Of a stretch of 64,000 bases of DNA, positions 1 to 59,712 are shown one piece after another. The stretch spans positions 16,340,535 through 16,404,534 of the forward strand of contig OX387608.1 in NCBI GenBank assembly GCA_947568835.1, in the 5' to 3' direction. The stretch comes from Protonemura montana. Its lineage: Eukaryota > Arthropoda > Insecta > Plecoptera > Nemouridae. The number at the start of each line of letters is the position of its first letter. Within the stretch, counting starts at the first letter, position 1. Both the position numbers and the translations under genes were made by a program. The notes under the pieces were generated by a model. It did not search any database. It was not told the origin of the DNA and saw only the letters and a list, made by a program, of their open reading frames with translations.

Positions 1-250
1 ACAGATCTCCAAGGAGTAGAACCCAGAGGCTGTGAATACTCACAGTCACTCTGATTCTAGAGACGCTATACCACGTCACAACCTGTCAAACTCGAGTAAC
101 TCCAATATGACGTTAGATGAGTCTTACCCCCCACCCAAGGCCACCTAGGGGACCCCGGCTTAACGTCTTTGAAAAACAGGATTCTCCACAAATCCATGCT
201 GTCGAGAGGTTGATAAGCAAGGCGAGTGAAGTTGCTGTACTAACTTTCAT
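1..250. other. Left window edge, no gene identified
   Basis: No supported coding exon. The minus-strand L1-domain gene is still open when it reaches its last visible donor at 657, so its next exon may lie here or beyond the window. I found no stretch here resembling the expected exon (the counterpart of 3172-3342). Confidence 0.4.
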
Positions 251-625
251 CCCTCCAACCTCTTTTCTAAACAGAACTGCTCATGTGTATAATGGTCACC
301 CATCCAATACCTGACCCATCGCAGTGTTGCTTAATGTTCATCCCTCCAACCTCTCTCCCTAACAGAACTGGTCATGTGTATGATGGTCACCCATCCAATA
401 CCTGACCCAGCGCAGTGTTGCTTAACTTTCATCCCTCCAACCTCTCTCCCGAACAGAACTGGTCATGTGTATGATGGTCACTTATCTAATACCTGACCCA
501 GCGCAGTGTTGCTTAACTTTCATCCCTCTAACCTCTCTCCCGAACAGAACTGGTCATGTGTATGATGGTCAACCATTCAATACCTGGCCCAGCGCAGTGT
601 TGCTAAACTTCGGAAATCTCACAAA
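251..625 (-). repeat. 91-bp tandem repeat with 5S rRNA-like core, about 4 units
   Basis: The landmark ACAGAACT recurs at 271, 362, 453 and 544, a period of 91 bases. Read on the minus strand, each unit contains AAGTTAAGCAACACTGCGCT followed by GTATTGGATGGGTGACC. This resembles the box A to box C part of metazoan 5S rRNA (GAAGTTAAGCA...TACTTGGATGGGTGACC). The rest of the unit is unlike 5S, so this is a 5S-derived satellite or SINE-like fragment and not a 5S gene. A second array of the same unit, in the opposite orientation, lies at 57395-57835. Confidence 0.8.
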
Positions 626-657: not shown

Positions 658-3600
658 CTTACAAGTGAGACGGGTCTTGGTTTCGTTGGCAAAGTAAGCC
701 GTGAGGCTGAGTCCATCCCAGAGGCTTTCCCTGAGATCGCTCAGTGGAAAGTCTGCCTTCATCTGCTGAGCCATGAAGGGTTTCAGGAAGCTGGGGTCGG
801 CCATATTGTGCAGCACCGTGTCGTAGCGTTTGGCCATCGCATTTAGGGCTAACTCGTCGCCAGAATTGAATGCGTTTCGGGCCATTCTTGCGTGTAAGAC
901 CTGCAGGGAAAACGCGGCAAGCGTTGAAACTCGAGCCGTTGGAAAGATAACCAAGATGTTTATTGGTTCAGAGCCACAGTTTGACTTTTTGAGTCGATCA
1001 TCCGGACTTGGGTGTCGCCCAACTGCAGGTGAAATGTTTGCAAACCCCAACGTCTGCTTTAGAACCAAAAAATGACATCAAAACCATCTCCAAAGCTTTA
1101 ACTCTTGTATTGAATTTATGTCACACTTTTATGTATGATAAAGAGGTATTCCTTTTTTTTCTTAAACTTACTTTTACATAGGTTTTACTTTTATGCAAGA
1201 TTTTTGTTGGAATGATTTATCAAGATATTCTAGTTTTGTGAGATAAATCTGATAATGAATGCCTGTAATATTTTCAGGATAAGAATGGCCAAAAAAAGTG
1301 GCAGACATACAATCGTCTTGCTCAAAGAGTCCCCCTATTAAAGTGCCCCAAAGAGTGCCCTACAATTTCTTGAAGGCAAATGTTGGTTGAAAGGAGTTGA
1401 AAGTTTTGAAAGTTTGTGTAATGTGCGTTCCTCACTGAACGTTAAAAACTGTGATTAGATTTTTTTTTTTTTTTAAAGCATAGGACTGATTTTTGTTGTA
1501 CATTTGTGGCCTTACATTTACTCTACCAGTGACAGGTGCCTCGACCACCGCGTCTTTGACGGCATCCACATCTGCGTCGTTGTCCAACAGGAAGCACACA
1601 CTGCGGTTCATACTCAGCGGGTGGGGCAGCTTCCTGTCAATCAAACGCACACATTAACACTCCTAGCGACCTGTTCCTACCTAACAGCATCAAGGCCCGG
1701 CCACCGCTTAGCCCTGTCCCTTTGACACACTATGTTGGCTGCTCCTGTCCAACAGCACCAAGGACCGGCCACCGCTTAGCCTTGTCCCTTTGACACACTA
1801 TGTTGGCTGCTCCTGTCCAACAGCACCAAGGACCGGCCACAGCTTAGCCTTGTCACTTTGACACACTGTGTTGGCTGCTCCTGTCCAACAGCACCAAGGA
1901 CTGACCACCGCTTAACCTTGTCCCTTTGACACACTGTTTTGGCTGCTCCTGTCCAACAGCACCAAGGAGGGACAAAGACCGATGACCCCTCATCATAAAC
2001 TTGACTTATCACAACTCACGGGAAGCCCTGAATGCTCGAGGCTTCGTAGAAATTTTTGAGTGCCAGCTCCAAGAAAACGGTGAAGCTTAGGTTCTGAAAA
2101 GCAGGGGGACCCTTAGTGCTTGGCCAATCAGCAAACCTCCTCAGCTTGCCAATGCTGGCCAGAAGCTGAAAAAAATTAAGGGTGATGTCAATCAACAGAG
2201 ATATTAGTACAAAGTTTTCTAATTATGTATATGCCCTCGCACGCAGTACATATGTCCCTGGCTCTCATTGAAGATGCCAACCCAGCTGTACACATCCATG
2301 CTTGCACCATGCCCTATACCTTGACACACATGTCCCTGGCTCCCATTGAAGATGCCAACCCAGCTGTACACATCCATGCATGCACCATGCCCTATACCTT
2401 GACACACATGTCCCTGACTCCCATTGAAGATGCCAACCCAGCTGTACACATCCATGCTTGCACCATGCCCTATACCTTGACACACATGTCCATGGCTGTG
2501 TCTCTACATATGTTAGCAGAGAATATACCTGCTCACCAAGTTATGAATATTATGTTGTTACTCACCTCATCATCAGCAACGTGAAAGCGGATGTGAACCT
2601 AAAAAAAAAAAAAAAAAAAGTTACACCCTCCAACAAGGTCTTATACAAACGAGGGGCACAAGATGGCAACCTCTCGCGTGAAAGGCTTGACGTTAAAGCA
2701 GCACGAAGATTCCATGTAGTATTGAATTCATGAAGTCCTCACGCAATTACAAACGGCTCGTTTGTTGCTCCAACTCTAGTAATTGTTCAGTAAGTTTTGG
2801 CTTAGAGATGAAGATAGGTAAGAAAATTAGACCCGAGTATTCGTAAAAATTCTGGACAAAAAATGTATTGGAAAATTACAATTTATAATCGAATAATATT
2901 TTGAGCACTCAAGGCTGAAGCATTTTTCAGAAAGAGATTGATTGGCCAAACAAAAGATCCTCTTGTAGATATGATTTATTGCTTTACAACTAGGAATAAA
3001 TAAAAAATAGCTTGTTCCACACTAAAACAGACCAGATAAGATACTGAAGCTTTAGGCAAAATTCAAACCTTCAGGATGCCAAAGAGCTACTCCTGTTATT
3101 CTTGCAATTTCAACATGGCCTCTCATTAACTTGGAAACGCAGCGCCATATCAATGCTCCTCGTTTCCATACCTTTCGGTCTTCATGAATCGTGACTCCCT
3201 CGATGCTGCCTGTCTTGAGATGTATCAACTCAACACTAGCGAGTCCCTTGAGTGAGATTCCGTTGTTTTGCTGGGTGACATCGTTGACCACACTTGTTAT
3301 GTTCTCCTGCAGCTGCTGGTTTGTGAGTCCAGTATGGCCAACCTGCAAGCACAAGTCAACTCTCAAAAACTTCTGGTCTTAATTATTTTTCTCAAGCCAG
3401 CTTGTGAGAGGCAATTTTTTAGTATACAAGGAGCCGATTCTTTGCTAATCAGTTCGCTTGCTTTATTCTTGGTTCTTCTCGAATAAGAAGACACTACAAA
3501 GCAATATAAGTACAATTAAAACACTCACCTTGATAAAATATGCAGTGTTTGCCAAATTCTTCCACAGTACAGTTTTTGCCAAGTCTGTTCCAAAAGTCTT

Positions 3601-5322
3601 GACAGACGAAGATATGCAGCACTTGAACTCTTTCAAAAAAGAGCTCTGCTTGTCCATCAAACTAAAAGATTTGATGCTCGAATCAAGAAAGTATGTATCA
3701 TATTTTTCAGCGAGTCTTGCGATAGCTTCATCATCTTTCTCTTCGATCGCCGTGTCCACCAAGCTTTGAGGTACGACCTGCAAATACAACCCAGGTCAAG
3801 AATCTGAACCAAAGTCCCTGTCTTAGTCTCGACTGCATCCTTACCTTGATCTTGCCAAGAACGCCAGCCTCTCTGAGTTTCTGCTTTATCTCGGCTTTCT
3901 GTTCTTTCGTTAGATCGTCGTTACTGATGTAGCACACCCTGCGATCCAGGCTCAGAGGATGCGGCAAATGTCTGTCACAAATAAAACCGAGATCAATAAT
4001 TAGAAGACTCGCTGATTGCAAAGAACAACCAGCAACATACATGATTAACCGCGGGCCATTCGAGCCTGTGCACAGAGCGGTTCACTACAACGGTGTACGT
4101 ACATTGCACAGGAAAACTAAAGAGTTGCAAGCTTTGCTACTTCAATAAGTGCTTGACTTTTAAGTACCCTAATATTTCTTTTATGATAATAGCTACGCCA
4201 CAGAAGTTAATATATAACAAAACTCACAGGAATATGTGCTTAAATGGTTCGTTCAAACTCCCCTTTTCCTTAGGCACAAACTCGAGGTAGATGGTGTTGG
4301 ATTCGTCGTTGAACTCTGGTGTTTCTGTTTCATTTGGCCAATCGGATGCAGCCTTCAGCGCCTCTATGTCGTCGGGAATCTGTTCACAGGAAGAAGTTGT
4401 CACAAATATCGACTCGATGAGCAAGACTTTATAAGATTCTTCTGGCAAAATGCGATGAAAGTGACATACTTCAAAAGTACCTTCAGAATACCTGCTTCGT
4501 CATTCAACAAAGACAACGTTTTACAGCCTAGCTCAAATAACCCAGCTCGATAAACAAGCGAGTTCCTTGGTTTGGTTGGTAGGTGAAAAAATTAAAATCT
4601 GGCCTAATCACTGACTGATGACCATGGATTGCAATCGTTTAAATAACTCAATGTGTGTCTGACGACCAGGTTTAAATGTCAAGATATGCTTGTCCTTGAC
4701 TAAAGCCACAAGGAAGTATGCCTGCATTAATTATCTGAACTGAATTCTTAAATTGTCTCTGATTAAAATTGACCACTTTTCTGCTTGGACACAATTTACT
4801 TAACTTGGTTGAACAACGATGTAACAAAAGCTGTAAGCTGCAGCTTGAACGAGCCGATGTAAATTACGTAAAATTAAACTTAGCAGCAAATTGTCTTTAA
4901 ACCATTCAATTTATCTATGAACTGCTTCGTACCTGGCTAGTTGTAGATTCAGCTTATCTTTTACAACCGTCGTGACCCAAACACAAGTAATCAGCAACCA
5001 ACAAACGCAACAAAACATGCACCATCTTTTTCAACAGCTTCTTTGATCTTACCCTGTCAATTAGTTGCTTTCTTCTGCTCTCTGTGCTATCTCTAGCCTT
5101 TTTTGAGACGTTACTATTGCCAGGGATGCCTTCTATTAGATTGCTTTCTTCGACTGTCCAGGCGCCATTAGCAGCATCTTCTATCTTGATATCTTTAACG
5201 ATCCCCTCTTCAAATGTATTCTGAATGTGCTTGTTCGTTTTTACTTTCTTTTTCTGTGAATGATGGAGTTCATTTGTAGTTTTCTTCTCTATCTCTGGAG
5301 CGGAGTCCTTCTTGCGCTTCAT
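658..5322 (-). CDS. Ribosomal L1-domain protein (RSL1D1/UTP30-like) with two tandem L1-like domains, partial
   Basis: RSL1D1/UTP30 proteins are nucleolar L1-fold proteins tied to ribosome assembly. Proposed exons in transcript order: 5322-5053, 4379-4228, 3971-3845, 3777-3529, 3342-3172, 2598-2566, 2165-2020, 1633-1516, 900-658. All have AG acceptors and GT donors (GTAAGA, GTGAGT, GTAAGG, GTGAGT, GTATGG, GTGAGT, GTGAGT, GTAAGG, GTAAAA), and the reading phase is kept throughout. Exon 1 encodes a Lys-rich N-terminus (MKRKKDSAPEIEKK...), fitting a nucleolar protein. Each domain has the family landmark LPHPLS (LPHSI in human RSL1D1), and domain 1 has VGHTGL where human has IGHVGM. The start is the first ATG of the Lys-rich exon. 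Exon 1 could also read on through its donor to a stop near 4954, and a small exon between 5052 and 4380 may be missing. The C-terminus is not visible. The alternative is two tandem genes, with the first ending at the stop at 3052. Confidence 0.72.
1672..1970. repeat. 68-bp intronic minisatellite, about 4 copies
   Basis: TGTTGGCTGCTCCTGTCCAA recurs at 1733, 1801 and 1869, with a variant near 1937, which gives a 68-base period. It lies in the intron between the 118-nt and 146-nt exons of the L1-domain gene. The minus-strand open frame across it is a repeat artefact. Confidence 0.85.
2240..2500. repeat. 78-bp intronic minisatellite, about 3.3 copies
   Basis: TTGACACACATGTCC recurs at 2321, 2399 and 2477, exactly 78 bases apart, with a partial copy upstream. 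78 is a multiple of three, so long frames stay open on both strands. The array lies wholly in the intron between the 33-nt and 146-nt exons. Confidence 0.85.
3172..4379 (-). other. L1-like domain 1 (exons 2-5 of the gene)
   Basis: The four exons are 152, 127, 249 and 171 nt with phases 0-2-0-0-0. They encode IPDDIEALKAASDW..., LHLPHPLSLDRRVCYI..., VVPQSLVDTAIEEKDD... and VGHTGLTNQQLQENITSVV.... The order and spacing fit an RSL1D1 L1 domain: an N-terminal helix and strand, the LPHP loop, the inserted sub-domain, and then the GH-G segment leading into the final strand (SVELIHLKTGS; human has SVKLLFVKTEKS). If the donor at 3171 is not used, exon 5 runs on to a stop at 3052 and adds about 40 residues that do not look like the family. 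Confidence 0.75.
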
Positions 5323-7534
5323 AGAACGCTCGGCCTATAATATGGTCAAAAGCAACTCTATATGTAATCTATATGAAATCAAACAGATCGTTCAGATCAG
5401 ATCTGTCGACTAATTCTGAGATTTTTCTTGATGCTTGTCAATACACTTAAATTTGTTCCATTGTAACCATTGGCAAAAATAGCAGATCGAGAAGTAGAAG
5501 TCGAAATCAATTAAAAAACCAGGTGTAGCTGTATCTTGTTGATACAGCCGATATTTAAGCGTGACTACGTTCAACTATCGCGTAGGCACGTAGGTCAACT
5601 ACTGTACTGACCATACTTCACATGCAAGTTTTACGTCTCTCTTTATTTGGGTTGTGTTTTCATATCTAATTTACATGCTGAAGGACTATACAGATTGGGA
5701 TGGAAGTGTCATCTTGCGATATATATATTTTATTTTGCATTAGTCTAATGACAAGTGCTAAAAACGCCGCCTCCTCTCACGCCTCCAATATTTAGTTTAT
5801 TGAAAATAAAAAAAAGTACCTCTAGAGAATTGTCTGAACTATTGAATGATAATAAATCGCACTCTGTACTTAGCTTCCTGTAGGCTGTATGGCTTGTTAC
5901 ACATGTGCCATTTTGGAGAGCAAATCCGTGCATGCCTCCCTATATAACGCGCTTTAAGACGTAGTCACGTCAAAATCTTAGATTAGCCCTGATCAGGGGT
6001 GTTTATTTTATAAAAATGTTGAATGGATTGTTGTGCATGATTGATGGCTGTCTATTTAAATTCTTTTGAAAATCAAAGGATGAGACAAGATATACTGCAC
6101 AAAATTTGGCATAATTATTTGTTTACACAATTGCTCTCCTGATCACTCTCAAAGTTTTCCTTCCTCCAGTTTTCATTTAGAAAGTAATCGTGTTCAAACG
6201 TCTTTGCTTTCTATCCCCGTGGTAATGGATTTCACTGCCGTGCTCATTTTAAAGAAACTTTCAAGATTGGCAAACTAATGTGTACTAACATTGCCAGACA
6301 CTCACGGTGAGTTGGCTAGTCGTTGGATGCATCATGACAGTAAGTTTCACGAGCACAGCACACCTGATGTTAAATATTTGGTGTTCGCTCATACACAGAC
6401 CAATCAGTAACCGAAGTTCACGGGATTTTCGGTTCTGAACACCTTAAGTGCTTTCCTGGATATGTGAACTACATTATTCTTGGGCATGCTACAGACATGC
6501 TACAGATGCTTCAGCACTTTGAAAGTTAGGTTATGAAAAGTAAACAGTATGATATCGACCTACTCCGGTACCTGTGATAAGTCAGTTTCTAATACTTCCC
6601 ATCTAGAAGCATCCTCAGGCCCATCTCGAGCGTTTAATTTCTTTTCTTTTTTCATGATGTAGTGAGTTTTTTGGAATTACGTACGAACCGCTATTCTTAA
6701 CTCAAACACGTGACAGGACCTAGTGTGAAACGCACCCGGGAAGTACGCCGCTGCCCGATAAACGGGTCCGGGAACCATCTCAACATAACGCAGTAAAAAA
6801 AAGGCAAAGAAAAAGCGCAACATGTGAAAAGTAAAAAAAAAAATAGAAACTAATTAACTTTCTATATTTTGAAAAAAAAACTTGCTTGAAGAGATAAACA
6901 ATTCATATAGGAAAAGAGAAAAAATATATTCCATTGTTATTTTTAACAGATATGTTATATTTATTTTATTTCTGTTGTTCTATTATTACTTACAAAATTA
7001 GGTAAAACCGTAAACAGCTAAAATAACATAAAAATTAAATAAAAAAACACAATAAGTATTTTCATCGGAGCCTGTACATTTAGTTTTAAAAAGGAAAATA
7101 ATATGTTGTTTACATACAAATGTACAATTACTACAGCTAAAATGTTTTAATAATACGATTTATACCTTGTTTATGATTCATTCCTGTAAATCTCACCGAG
7201 ACAAAATTATTTGGGCCCAAATTTTTTTGCCTCGATAGCAGAGTTTGCAGAGACAAATTTTTATTACAAAACATACAGTATAAAAAAGAGTCATTATTTC
7301 GCAAATTGTAAAGAAACTTAATGTATCAGCAAATACACAGTTGAGATTTGAGCAAACCTAGAGGTTGAAGCACATTGAAAAGAACCGTTATTGATTCCAA
7401 TTTCTAACTATTTTCCTGTCCAAGATCAGAGAAAAACAAAGCTCAGAGGCGAGTCGCCGCGTGGCAAGAAGCACACACTTTGTATAAGATAAAGCTATAG
7501 AGCACAAAACTAAAGATCAAAACACATACAATAC
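5323..7534. other. AT-rich intergenic spacer
   Basis: This is the upstream flank of the L1-domain gene, whose promoter should lie just right of 5322. No TATA or initiator element can be argued with confidence. The rest is AT-rich with oligo-A runs around 6800-7050. I see no gene, inverted-repeat element or RNA here. Confidence 0.5.
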
Positions 7535-44965: not shown

Positions 44966-45489
44966 CAACCATTAACAAACATCATAAACGAATCGTTCTC
45001 ACGAGGTGAATTCCCGACGAAACCCAAGAAAGCCACGCTGATAAACGCAGATAAGTATCGACCGATCAGTTTGCTATTCGGGTTGTCAAAGCTCTTCAAG
45101 GCTAAGTGCATTAGACTACTTGCATTCCTAAAAAAGTGCAACCTACAAAATGATTGCCAGCATGGATTCACCCAGAACAAGTCCACGAGTACAGCGATTG
45201 CACCGGAAGGAAGGAGCCCTTGGTATCTTTTATGATTATACCAAGGCCTTCGACACCCTGAACTACAGCATACTGCTTGAAAAATTAAGATGTCTGGGAA
45301 TAGATGGAATCGAAAATACCTGGAAAAGATCGTTCCTAAAAGTTCGAAGGCAAACGATTTGCAACAGAGGGAAGGAAAAGGACTACTATTCAGAAGAAGT
45401 TATCTGCAATGTCAGAATCCCCCAGAGAAGCACGCTTTCGCCTTTATTATTCATCTTGTACACAAATGACCTACCAGAGCAGAACCATA

Positions 45490-45918
45490 AGCTATATATA
45501 CCAAAGCACAGGCTGCAAGCTTTTAAATCTAATGTATTTTATAATGGTATTAGTTTTTTTTTTTTTTACCATCTTCCAACATGCTTAACATCAAAAGTAA
45601 AACACGCCTCCAATTTTAGAGCTAAAGTGAAAAGTGTTTTAATAAAAAAAGCTTTGTATAGCATAGATGAATTTTATCAGATACCAATGACAGAATGGAA
45701 ACTCTAATGTTAAGCCAGCATTATTATGTAAATAGTTTTTGATGTATACCTATCGTTTTTTTTTATTTTATTTATTTATTTATTTATTATTAATATTATT
45801 ATTAATTATTATATTCTTATCTTATTTTTAATTATTTTTAATTATTGACGAGCTCAAATCCTGTAAACTCTATGTACAATTGTGATAACGAGCAAAATAA
45901 ACGAATAAACAAACAATT
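45490..45918 (+). mobile_element. LINE 3' fragment nested in the LINE
   Basis: It encodes a C-terminal tail (FYHLPTCLTSKVKHASNF, FRAKVKSVLIKKALYSIDEF) followed by an AT-rich 3' UTR and ATGTACAATTGTGATAACGA, then AATAAACGAATAAAC. The host RT resumes at about 45920 with the FANN motif. The exact left junction lies somewhere in 45480-45540. Confidence 0.7.
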
Positions 45919-57394: not shown

Positions 57395-57835
57395 AACTAT
57401 GCACTGCGCTGAGTCAGGTATTGGATGGGTGACCATCATACACATGACCAGTTCTGTTCGGGAGAGAGGTTGGAGGGATGAAAGTTAAGCAACACTGCGC
57501 TGAGTCAGGTATTGGATGGGTGACCATCATACACATGACCAGTTCTGTTCGGGAGAGAGGTTGGAGGGATGAAAGTTAAGCAACACTGCGCTGAGTCAGG
57601 TATTGGATGGGTGACCATCATACACATGACCAGTTCTGTTCGGGAGAGAGGTTGGAGGGATGAAAGTTAAGCAACACTGCGCTGGGTCAGGTATTAGATG
57701 GATGACCATCATACACATGACCAGTTCTGTTTGGGAGAGAGGTTGGAGGGATGAAAGTTAAGCAACACTGCGCTGGGTCAGGTATGGGATGGGTGACCAT
57801 CATACACATGACCAGTTCTGTTCGGGAGAGAGGTG
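57395..57835 (+). repeat. 91-bp tandem repeat with 5S rRNA-like core, about 5 units
   Basis: GTTCTGTTCGGGAGAGAGG recurs at about 57451, 57542, 57633, 57724 (one change) and 57815, spaced 91 bases. Units carry AAGTTAAGCAACACTGCGCT and ATTGGATGGGTGACC on the plus strand, opposite to the array at 251-625. Confidence 0.85.
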
Positions 57836-59058: not shown

Positions 59059-59712
59059 CACCATGAGCCCCCCGAGCCCCCCGAGCACCAAGAGCACCAA
59101 GAGCACCATGAGCACCATGAGCACCATGAGCCCCCCGAGCCCCCCGAGCCCCCCGAGCCCCCCGAGCACCATGAGCACCAAGAGCACCATGAGCACCATG
59201 AGCCCCCCGAGCCCCCCGAGCCCCCCGAGCCCCCCGAGCACCATGAGCACCAAGAGCACCATGAGCACCAAGAGCACCATGATCACCATGAGCACCATGA
59301 GCACCATGAGCCCCCCGAGCACCATGAGCACCATGAGCACCATGAGCACCAAGAGCACCAAGAGCACCATGAGCACCATGAGCACCATGAGCACCATGAG
59401 CACCATGAGCACCATGAGCACCATGAGCACCAAGAGCACCATGAGCACCAAGAGCACCAAGAGCACCACGAGCACCATGAGCACCATGAGCACCATGAGC
59501 ACCAAGAGCACCATGAGCACCATGAGCACCATGAGCACCATGAGCACCATAAGCACCATGAGCACCATGAGCACCATAAGCACCATGAGCACCAAGAGCA
59601 CCATGAGCACCATGAGCACCATGAGCACCATGAGCACCATGAGCACCATGAGCACCAAGAGCACCATGAGCACCATGAGCCCCCCGAGCACCATGAGCAC
59701 CATGAGCACCAC
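59059..59712. repeat. 9-bp repeat array, about 72 units
   Basis: Units are GAGCACCAT, GAGCACCAA and GAGCCCCCC. Three frames are open and read as STM on the plus strand and GAH or MVL on the minus strand. The 388-codon minus frame resembles a collagen-like repeat only because the unit has nine bases. Higher-order blocks of GAGCCCCCC recur at 59126-59164 and 59201-59238. Confidence 0.95.

Follow-up and report, generated by a model that had tools for sequence, protein, structure and literature searches.

A candidate two-domain gene at the edge of a cluster of ribosomal L1 modules in the stonefly Protonemura montana

The L1-domain assembly factors known to us carry one L1 domain each. A gene on contig C11 (OX387608.1) of the stonefly Protonemura montana, in which two successive sets of exons code for L1-like segments, raises the question of whether a single protein can carry two such domains, and how such a protein would arise. 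The gene, here termed gene D, lies on the minus strand at the low end of a stretch of 64,000 nucleotides (C11:16340535-16404534), hereafter the window; the assembly searched comprises 258 Mb in 34 contigs. We consider it likely that gene D encodes a lysine-rich start, two tandem L1 domains (D1 and D2) separated by an 11-residue linker, and a basic tail, and that three related genes (A, B and C) encode four L1 domains each. The exons of gene D (E0 to E9) and one further element, in window coordinates, are as follows.

6572..6655, minus strand: E0, possible first coding exon (MKKEKK..., 28 codons, phase 0), in frame to the acceptor before 5334
5053..5334, minus strand: E1, lysine-rich N-terminal region, open frame (ATG at 5322 if E0 is unused)
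4228..4379, minus strand: E2, 152 nt, first part of D1, with homologues in E7 and in the first exons of the 12 sibling modules
3845..3971, minus strand: E3, 127 nt, part of D1 with an LPHPLS motif
3529..3777, minus strand: E4, 249 nt, part of D1, donor rank 1/411
3172..3342, minus strand: E5, 171 nt, end of D1 with a VGHTGLT motif, donor at 3171, rank 7/411
2975..2980, minus strand: AATAAA in intron 5, 72 nt past an in-frame stop at 3052, found by sequence only
2566..2598, minus strand: E6, 33-nt linker micro-exon (VHIRFHVADDE, 11 residues), phase 0-0
2020..2165, minus strand: E7, 146 nt, first part of D2, without an in-frame Met
1516..1633, minus strand: E8, 118 nt, part of D2 with an LPHPLS motif
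658..900, minus strand: E9, 243 nt, part of D2, which continues beyond the window

Splice sites were ranked among the 498 AG and 411 GT sites on the minus strand from 6700 to 20, using generic consensus matrices. The parallel exon sets of 152/127/249 and 146/118/243 nt described in a first-pass annotation were all recovered, with their sizes, AG/GT borders and phases (0-2, 2-0 and 0-0), and both sets are joined in frame, with no stop, through the 3171 donor and a 33-nt exon at 2598-2566. From the ATG at 5322 in E1 to E9 there is one open frame of 503 codons with AG/GT at its inner borders, leaving the window at the low end. One correction is needed: D2 is incomplete within the window, and its last exon (VGHMGLTDKQL) is found at C11:16340192-16340040, 342-494 bases below window base 1. 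Beyond it lies a basic tail exon (C11:16339647-16339345) with a stop at 16339345 and an AATAAA 241 bases further. At the other end, gene D may start at 6655, in E0, rather than at 5322; E0 has a weak donor (0.81, rank 32/411) and a coding score of +0.7 bits, and the ratio of observed to expected CpG reaches 1.37 in 6600-6900, with a CACGTG at 6707 near the exon. For E1, the coding score is +32.1 bits and the donor and acceptor rank 5/411 and 28/498. Including the optional E0, the predicted protein has 686 residues. Minisatellites of 68 bp (1683-1968) and 78 bp (2248-2497) lie within the introns of domain 2, and the 68-bp one is seen again at C11:16178754-16179384.

The first-pass annotation proposed that both domains belong to one polypeptide, and named as contrary signs a transcript ending at the stop at 3052 or a separate start for the second domain. 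Both were sought in the sequence. The linker exon E6 has the top-ranked acceptor (1/498), the second-ranked donor (2/411) and a coding score of +3.8 bits, whereas reading through the donor to the stop at 3052 totals -4.9 bits; the stretch 3171-3055 scores -0.148 per codon, a value that 26% of null stretches reach, and so resembles intron. If D1 and D2 were two tandem single-L1 genes, the first would end at the stop at 3052 and the AATAAA at 2980, which do stand in the correct order, and the second would need a start of its own. There is, however, no in-frame Met in E6 or E7, and reading the second set from its first Met, which falls in E8, would omit about a quarter of the domain; between 3300 and 2167, the only ATG exons with a phase-0 donor above 0 are two within the 78-bp minisatellite (2455 and 2377). 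We therefore regard the two-gene arrangement as highly unlikely, and one gene D polypeptide with two L1 domains, the proposal of the annotation, is probably correct. An operon, or trans-splicing at the T-rich E6 acceptor, was also considered and rejected, since the lack of an in-frame Met in E6 and E7 would leave no whole D2 domain. The AATAAA at 2980 makes a shorter, D1-only transcript possible. Because E5 can also splice directly to E7 in frame, E6 may be a cassette exon.

D1 and D2 are homologous. Their local alignment scores 173 (best of 2000 shuffles, 55), each of the exon pairs E2/E7, E3/E8 and E4/E9 outscores all 1000 shuffles, and BLASTP matches the domains at 4e-21 with 30% identity. 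When exon borders were compared by eye in the alignment, three of the four fell at an identical column, and the fourth (end of E4 versus end of E9) had equal phase at an offset of about nine residues. The best local DNA alignment between the two exon sets covers only 36 bases, which argues that the duplication is old.

Membership of the L1 family was assessed with the Ribosomal_L1 profile, the check suggested with the first-pass annotation (Pfam PF00687; curated cut-off 32.2 bits, whole-protein score). D1 passes at 34.4 bits; D2 passes, at 36.5 bits, only when its out-of-window last exon is included, and the in-window D2 exons alone give no Pfam hit. Against profiles of RSL1D1/UTP30 and of uL1, D1 scores 28.2 and 17.6 bits (best of 2000 shuffles, 8.2 and 7.6). 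In-window D2 scores 0.7 and 5.8 bits, neither over the best shuffles, and 13.3 once D1 joins the profile (shuffles at most 7.0); hhalign of in-window D2 alone with RSL1D1 gives E 0.098 and probability 0.6. A search of solved structures found no match for D1 alone (phmmer, E up to 1) and none for D2 alone; a two-row profile of D1 and D2 had a repeat protein as its sole match, with no stretch passing alone, and this was judged spurious. No relatives were found in viral_contigs or genome_contigs, neither of which is a eukaryotic collection.

A genome search with D1 returned 56 exon matches (E up to 10), 51 of which, those of gene D included, fall in C11:16.148-16.345 Mb on both strands; these match counts are lower bounds. 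This cluster of about 200 kb, with gene D at one edge, contains 12 further complete four-exon L1 modules besides D1 and D2.

C11:16279006-16336426, plus strand: M1 to M8, eight modules
C11:16170057-16148224, minus strand: M1' to M4', four modules

All 14 modules consist of four exons with lengths of 2, 1, 0 and 0 modulo 3 (137-164, 115-127, 240-252 and 153-183 nt), and none contains an internal stop. AG and GT flank 56/56 module exons, with borders partly chosen for that. In none of the 14 does the first exon begin with Met, and in every fourth exon a phase-0 GT stands right behind the domain, with donor scores from 0.1 (M1) to 6.6. The simplest reading is that the cluster comprises three genes of four modules each, A (M1-M4), B (M5-M8) and C (M1'-M4'), and gene D with two. 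In line with this, every one of the three predicted proteins shows four Ribosomal_L1 stretches in Pfam (E up to 1 apiece), with whole-protein scores of 102.1 bits for A, 111.0 for B and 111.8 for C; the proteins were submitted without tails, and B also without its initial exon, and weak Pfam rows under their own cut-offs, such as DUF4394 in C (16.1 bits versus 29.6), were ignored. The count of 14 omits a single-module relative at C11:8.551-8.554 Mb, a partial one at C12:15.39 Mb with no clear last exon, and a solitary copy of a last module exon, shortened internally, in gene A (C11:16291549-16291668; VGHAGLT..., phase 0-0, open), which is either a remnant or a short extra exon.

Among the 14 modules D2 is the most diverged (23-29% identity to the other 13; branch length 2.74), as would be expected if the second domain were a decaying, untranslated duplicate. 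Yet all four of its exons are open with AG/GT borders, and the completed domain exceeds the Pfam cut-off. Leave-one-out codon scores of E7, E8 and E9 (0.27, 0.41 and 0.33) are level with those of the D1 exons E2 to E5 (0.22, 0.32, -0.10 and 0.11), the lowest being that of E4, and identity between D1 and D2 by codon position is 0.47/0.59/0.34. Decay of D2 is thus very improbable. Taken together, the start codons, the ranking of splice sites, the codon scores and the Pfam results led us to reject a gene for each domain as well as a decayed second domain.

The boundaries of the proposed four-module genes are marked by candidate initial and terminal exons. Initial exons with phase-0 donors precede M1 (MVPRDDEM..., 7.9 bits), M5 (MARIGVSS..., 10.5) and M1' (MVPRDDEM..., 6.6), and basic, lysine-rich tail exons follow M4 (273 codons, 75.0 bits), M8 (24.5), M4' (25.8) and D2 (27.2). 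The tails comprise 100 residues in D (31% K+R, net +22), 273 in A (22%, +39) and 65 in C (23%, +9); the first tail exon of gene B encodes 101 residues (16% K+R, net +2). Four of the nine gaps inside A-C (M1-M2, M3-M4, M5-M6 and M2'-M3') contain no candidate exon of at least 4 bits, while the M1'-M2' gap has a candidate of 39-43 nt with entry phase 2. Gaps M7-M8 of gene B and M3'-M4' of gene C hold 45-nt micro-exons of phase 0-0, VLVKDELKPAFPTKV and NIVEDEPQPALPVKV, the former scoring 7.2 alongside weaker readings of the same stretch. The two are alike at 34/45 bases (score 42 versus a maximum of 26 in 500 shuffles) and are best read as internal linkers between modules 3 and 4; E6 occupies the equivalent place in gene D, the tenth module gap. 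That the siblings follow the same plan as gene D, two of them with homologous micro-exons, further argues against splitting gene D in two, as does the basic tail, which is found past D2 and is not encoded by the D1 read-through.

Two side observations concern gene A. Its tail (C11:16313298-16314119) itself repeats KKSKVVKRSTAPIDSAP-like units, and upstream of the gene, at C11:16276786-16276997, is a strong terminal-exon candidate (27.8 bits, phase 1) that probably belongs to another gene; we take its cysteine pattern to resemble that of a thyroglobulin type-1 domain.

Several observations weigh against these multi-domain gene models. Some inner donors are weak (M1 0.1, M1' 1.7, M5 2.1), and so are those of the three initial exons (0.6-0.7), of which the A and C exons are mutual copies. 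Left unspliced, each of the 14 last module exons reaches an in-frame stop within 2-39 codons, so that on paper a transcript could end at any module, and in gene D an AATAAA sits between both domains. Competing readings exist in several gaps: a remnant resembling a fifth exon between M2 and M3 can be read as internal (20.3 bits), terminal (18.4) or initial (10.2), beside weak candidates in other phases; a terminal candidate between M6 and M7 (6.3) overlaps the first exon of M7 in another frame; a terminal candidate between M7 and M8 (4.1) is a longer reading of the linker; and a stretch between M3' and M4' reads as an initial exon (7.5). A last exon of gene B was looked for and not found. CpG peaks, tried as promoter marks, were uninformative, failing to separate gene starts from inner module starts (M2 2.01, M8 1.5, start of B 1.2). 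The splice matrix behind the models is home-made, from generic consensus frequencies, and the codon score learned in part from the very exons it was applied to, except in the leave-one-out rows (E2-E5 and E7-E9); the training set included provisional borders for M2.E4, M4.E4, M4.E5 and M5.E2 and excluded M4'.E4 (which has stops in its provisional frame), M6.E4 and M3'.E4. As to function and selection, the case for a nucleolar role comes down to family resemblance and basic tails, and the ratio of nonsynonymous to synonymous divergence (dN/dS, by a home-made NG86 method) is 1.06 for M1/M1' and 0.85 for M3/M2', the two youngest pairs, values that relaxed constraint could explain.

How the modules multiplied is partly recorded in their tree, which groups them by position: M1, M1' and M5; M4, M4' and M8; M7 and M3'; and M2, M3, M2' and M6 (bootstrap 93-100 in one tree and 84-100 in a second). 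Because modules cluster by position, the four-module gene seems older than the split of A, B and C, and the third place of gene A seems to hold a module of the second type. A and C also share a recent inverted copy: the segments C11:16167178-16171213 and C11:16277867-16281821, which hold the starts of C and A, are 93.8% identical over 4,053 aligned bases. The first-pass annotation had attributed the two domains of gene D to an internal duplication. D1 shares 35-44% identity with the 12 sibling modules and only 28% with D2, D2 has a very long branch, and a tree test of a D1+D2 clade speaks neither for nor against it (p-AU 0.473).

The description of gene D as RSL1D1-like likewise needed refinement. 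D1 is nearer to RSL1D1/UTP30 than to uL1, but a canonical RSL1D1 candidate, of which the L1 part only was read, lies elsewhere, at C13:7709992. Human, S. pombe and C13 sequences form a clade (100/98) separate from that of the modules, with a warning from the tool that long branches meet there, and the C13 candidate matches across the E3/E4 border as one open stretch. A uL1 gene is present on C4 (four matches, 72-85% identity to human RPL10A). By sequence, all genes of the cluster are divergent RSL1D1-family paralogues and not the RSL1D1 orthologue, and since a canonical RSL1D1 candidate and a uL1 gene are kept separately, they would have been free to diverge.

This divergence extends to the chemistry of the domains. 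Net charge is -8 for D1 and 0 for D2, and averages -1.0 over the 14 modules (range -14 to +8, the latter in M4'), whereas four known members of the family range from +8 to +19 and the C13 fragment has +11. Among 43 columns invariant in the human, S. pombe and C. thermophilum members, D1 keeps 14, and in-window D2 keeps 9 of the 33 aligned; both domains have lost most of the P-LG-FY-K-PV core motif of RSL1D1/UTP30. Given this loss of charge and motif, rRNA binding by the modules in the canonical mode is unlikely, and the idea that the two domains bind two rRNA sites, raised in the first-pass annotation, fits poorly with the net charges of D1 and D2. Because canonical rRNA binding is unlikely, we infer that a multivalent scaffold is the better reading.

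A mechanism can be outlined on these grounds. The unit of growth would be the four-exon module, whose phase 0 at both ends means that head-to-tail copying keeps the frame. Homology, modularity, phases, open frames and Pfam matches are seen in the sequence itself, and from these we infer splicing into one mRNA, location and binding. The basic ends would direct the protein to the nucleus or nucleolus and account for most of its RNA affinity, and the L1 folds, which in D1 and D2 lack positive charge and most of the core motif, would act as a multivalent chain that binds proteins or RNA of pre-ribosomes. Descent and tails make a nuclear or nucleolar role the default, and the mechanism as a whole is tentative, with somewhat less than an even chance of being right. 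Alternatively, the multi-L1 proteins may have left ribosome assembly and become a lineage-specific family that evolves fast in a different nuclear or RNA-related role, for example by binding foreign or non-ribosomal RNA. The clustered expansion with inverted copies, the loss of family core residues from D1 and D2 and of net positive charge, and the retention of a separate canonical RSL1D1 candidate would all suit such a departure, as would the dN/dS ratios, which rise in the two most recent pairs from 0.44-0.57 in 7/8 older ones (D1/D2, the remaining pair, has saturated silent sites). Yet relaxed constraint accounts for the same ratios, and the basic tails are like those of RSL1D1. We consider this departure unlikely. 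Rather unlikely, too, is a broader formulation in which the cluster represents a poly-L1 class not described before, whereby a four-exon, phase-symmetric module would have been copied head to tail into two- and four-domain proteins that dropped the rRNA-binding surface, evolve fast and have a lineage-specific job outside canonical ribosome assembly.

The remainder of the window is rich in repeats. A unit of about 4.6 kb is repeated head to tail in 17126-42333, some five and a half times at roughly 90-97% identity; the unit has inner repeats of about 297 bp and a 113-codon open frame, and the frames tested gave no Pfam hit. Tandem repeats of 91 bp lie at 241-610 and 57402-57834, and their unit seems to resemble part of 5S rRNA; Rfam found nothing in the window at gathering score, nor in 1-700 at E up to 1. 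The L1 cluster has intronic repeats with a spacing of about 91 bp as well, and some of these match C11:16340705-16341158 (window 171-624). A reverse-transcriptase fragment (Pfam RVT_1, 32.9 bits) is found at 45132-45704, and at 59059-59711 a 9-bp unit (CACCATGAG) is repeated about 73 times, leaving several frames open.

Proteins with two or four domains would be evidence that an ancient fold for rRNA binding can be linked up into a multivalent chain, a process eased by matching end phases. Together with the single-module relative, the cluster places one-, two- and four-module forms in a single genome that also keeps a canonical candidate, a ready series in which the loss of the original binding surface, subfunctionalization and growth in domain number could be compared. 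Among the matches listed in the open-access literature, there was no description of proteins with two or four L1 domains, or with tandem or multiple ones; protein databases or other eukaryotic genomes, which lie outside the scope of that search, may already contain the architecture.

Known L1-domain proteins provide the standard for comparison. Passages in the literature describe RSL1D1 as a nucleolar protein with a lysine-rich end besides its L1 domain (PMC8344204), report that Utp30 contacts helix 41 in the 90S particle (PMC5354517), and locate Cic1 in the pre-60S foot, together with the N-terminal part of ITS2 (PMC6340896); a table in one review pairs RSL1D1 with Utp30 (PMC9013438). Of the traits of RSL1D1, UTP30 and CIC1, the cluster shares the predicted lysine-rich tail. 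The L1 domains of the cluster are mostly not basic (M4' alone reaches +8), the gene models have more than one L1 domain, and D1 and D2 lack most of the invariant residues. Like human RSL1D1 (8fkp) and S. pombe C8F11.04, the predicted proteins combine the L1 fold with a lysine-rich tail, but those two have one L1 domain, in contrast to two in D and, in the gene models, four in A, B and C, and the 14 modules are only 14-21% identical to them. Yeast UTP30 and CIC1/NSA3, also L1-domain assembly factors, have a single L1 domain, and the yeast Utp30 fragment carries a net charge of +19, far from the values of D1 and D2. With uL1 (RPL10A) the modules have the Pfam family PF00687 in common, but D1 scores 17.6 bits with the uL1 profile versus 28.2 with that of RSL1D1/UTP30, which sets D1 closer to the assembly factors than to the ribosomal protein itself.

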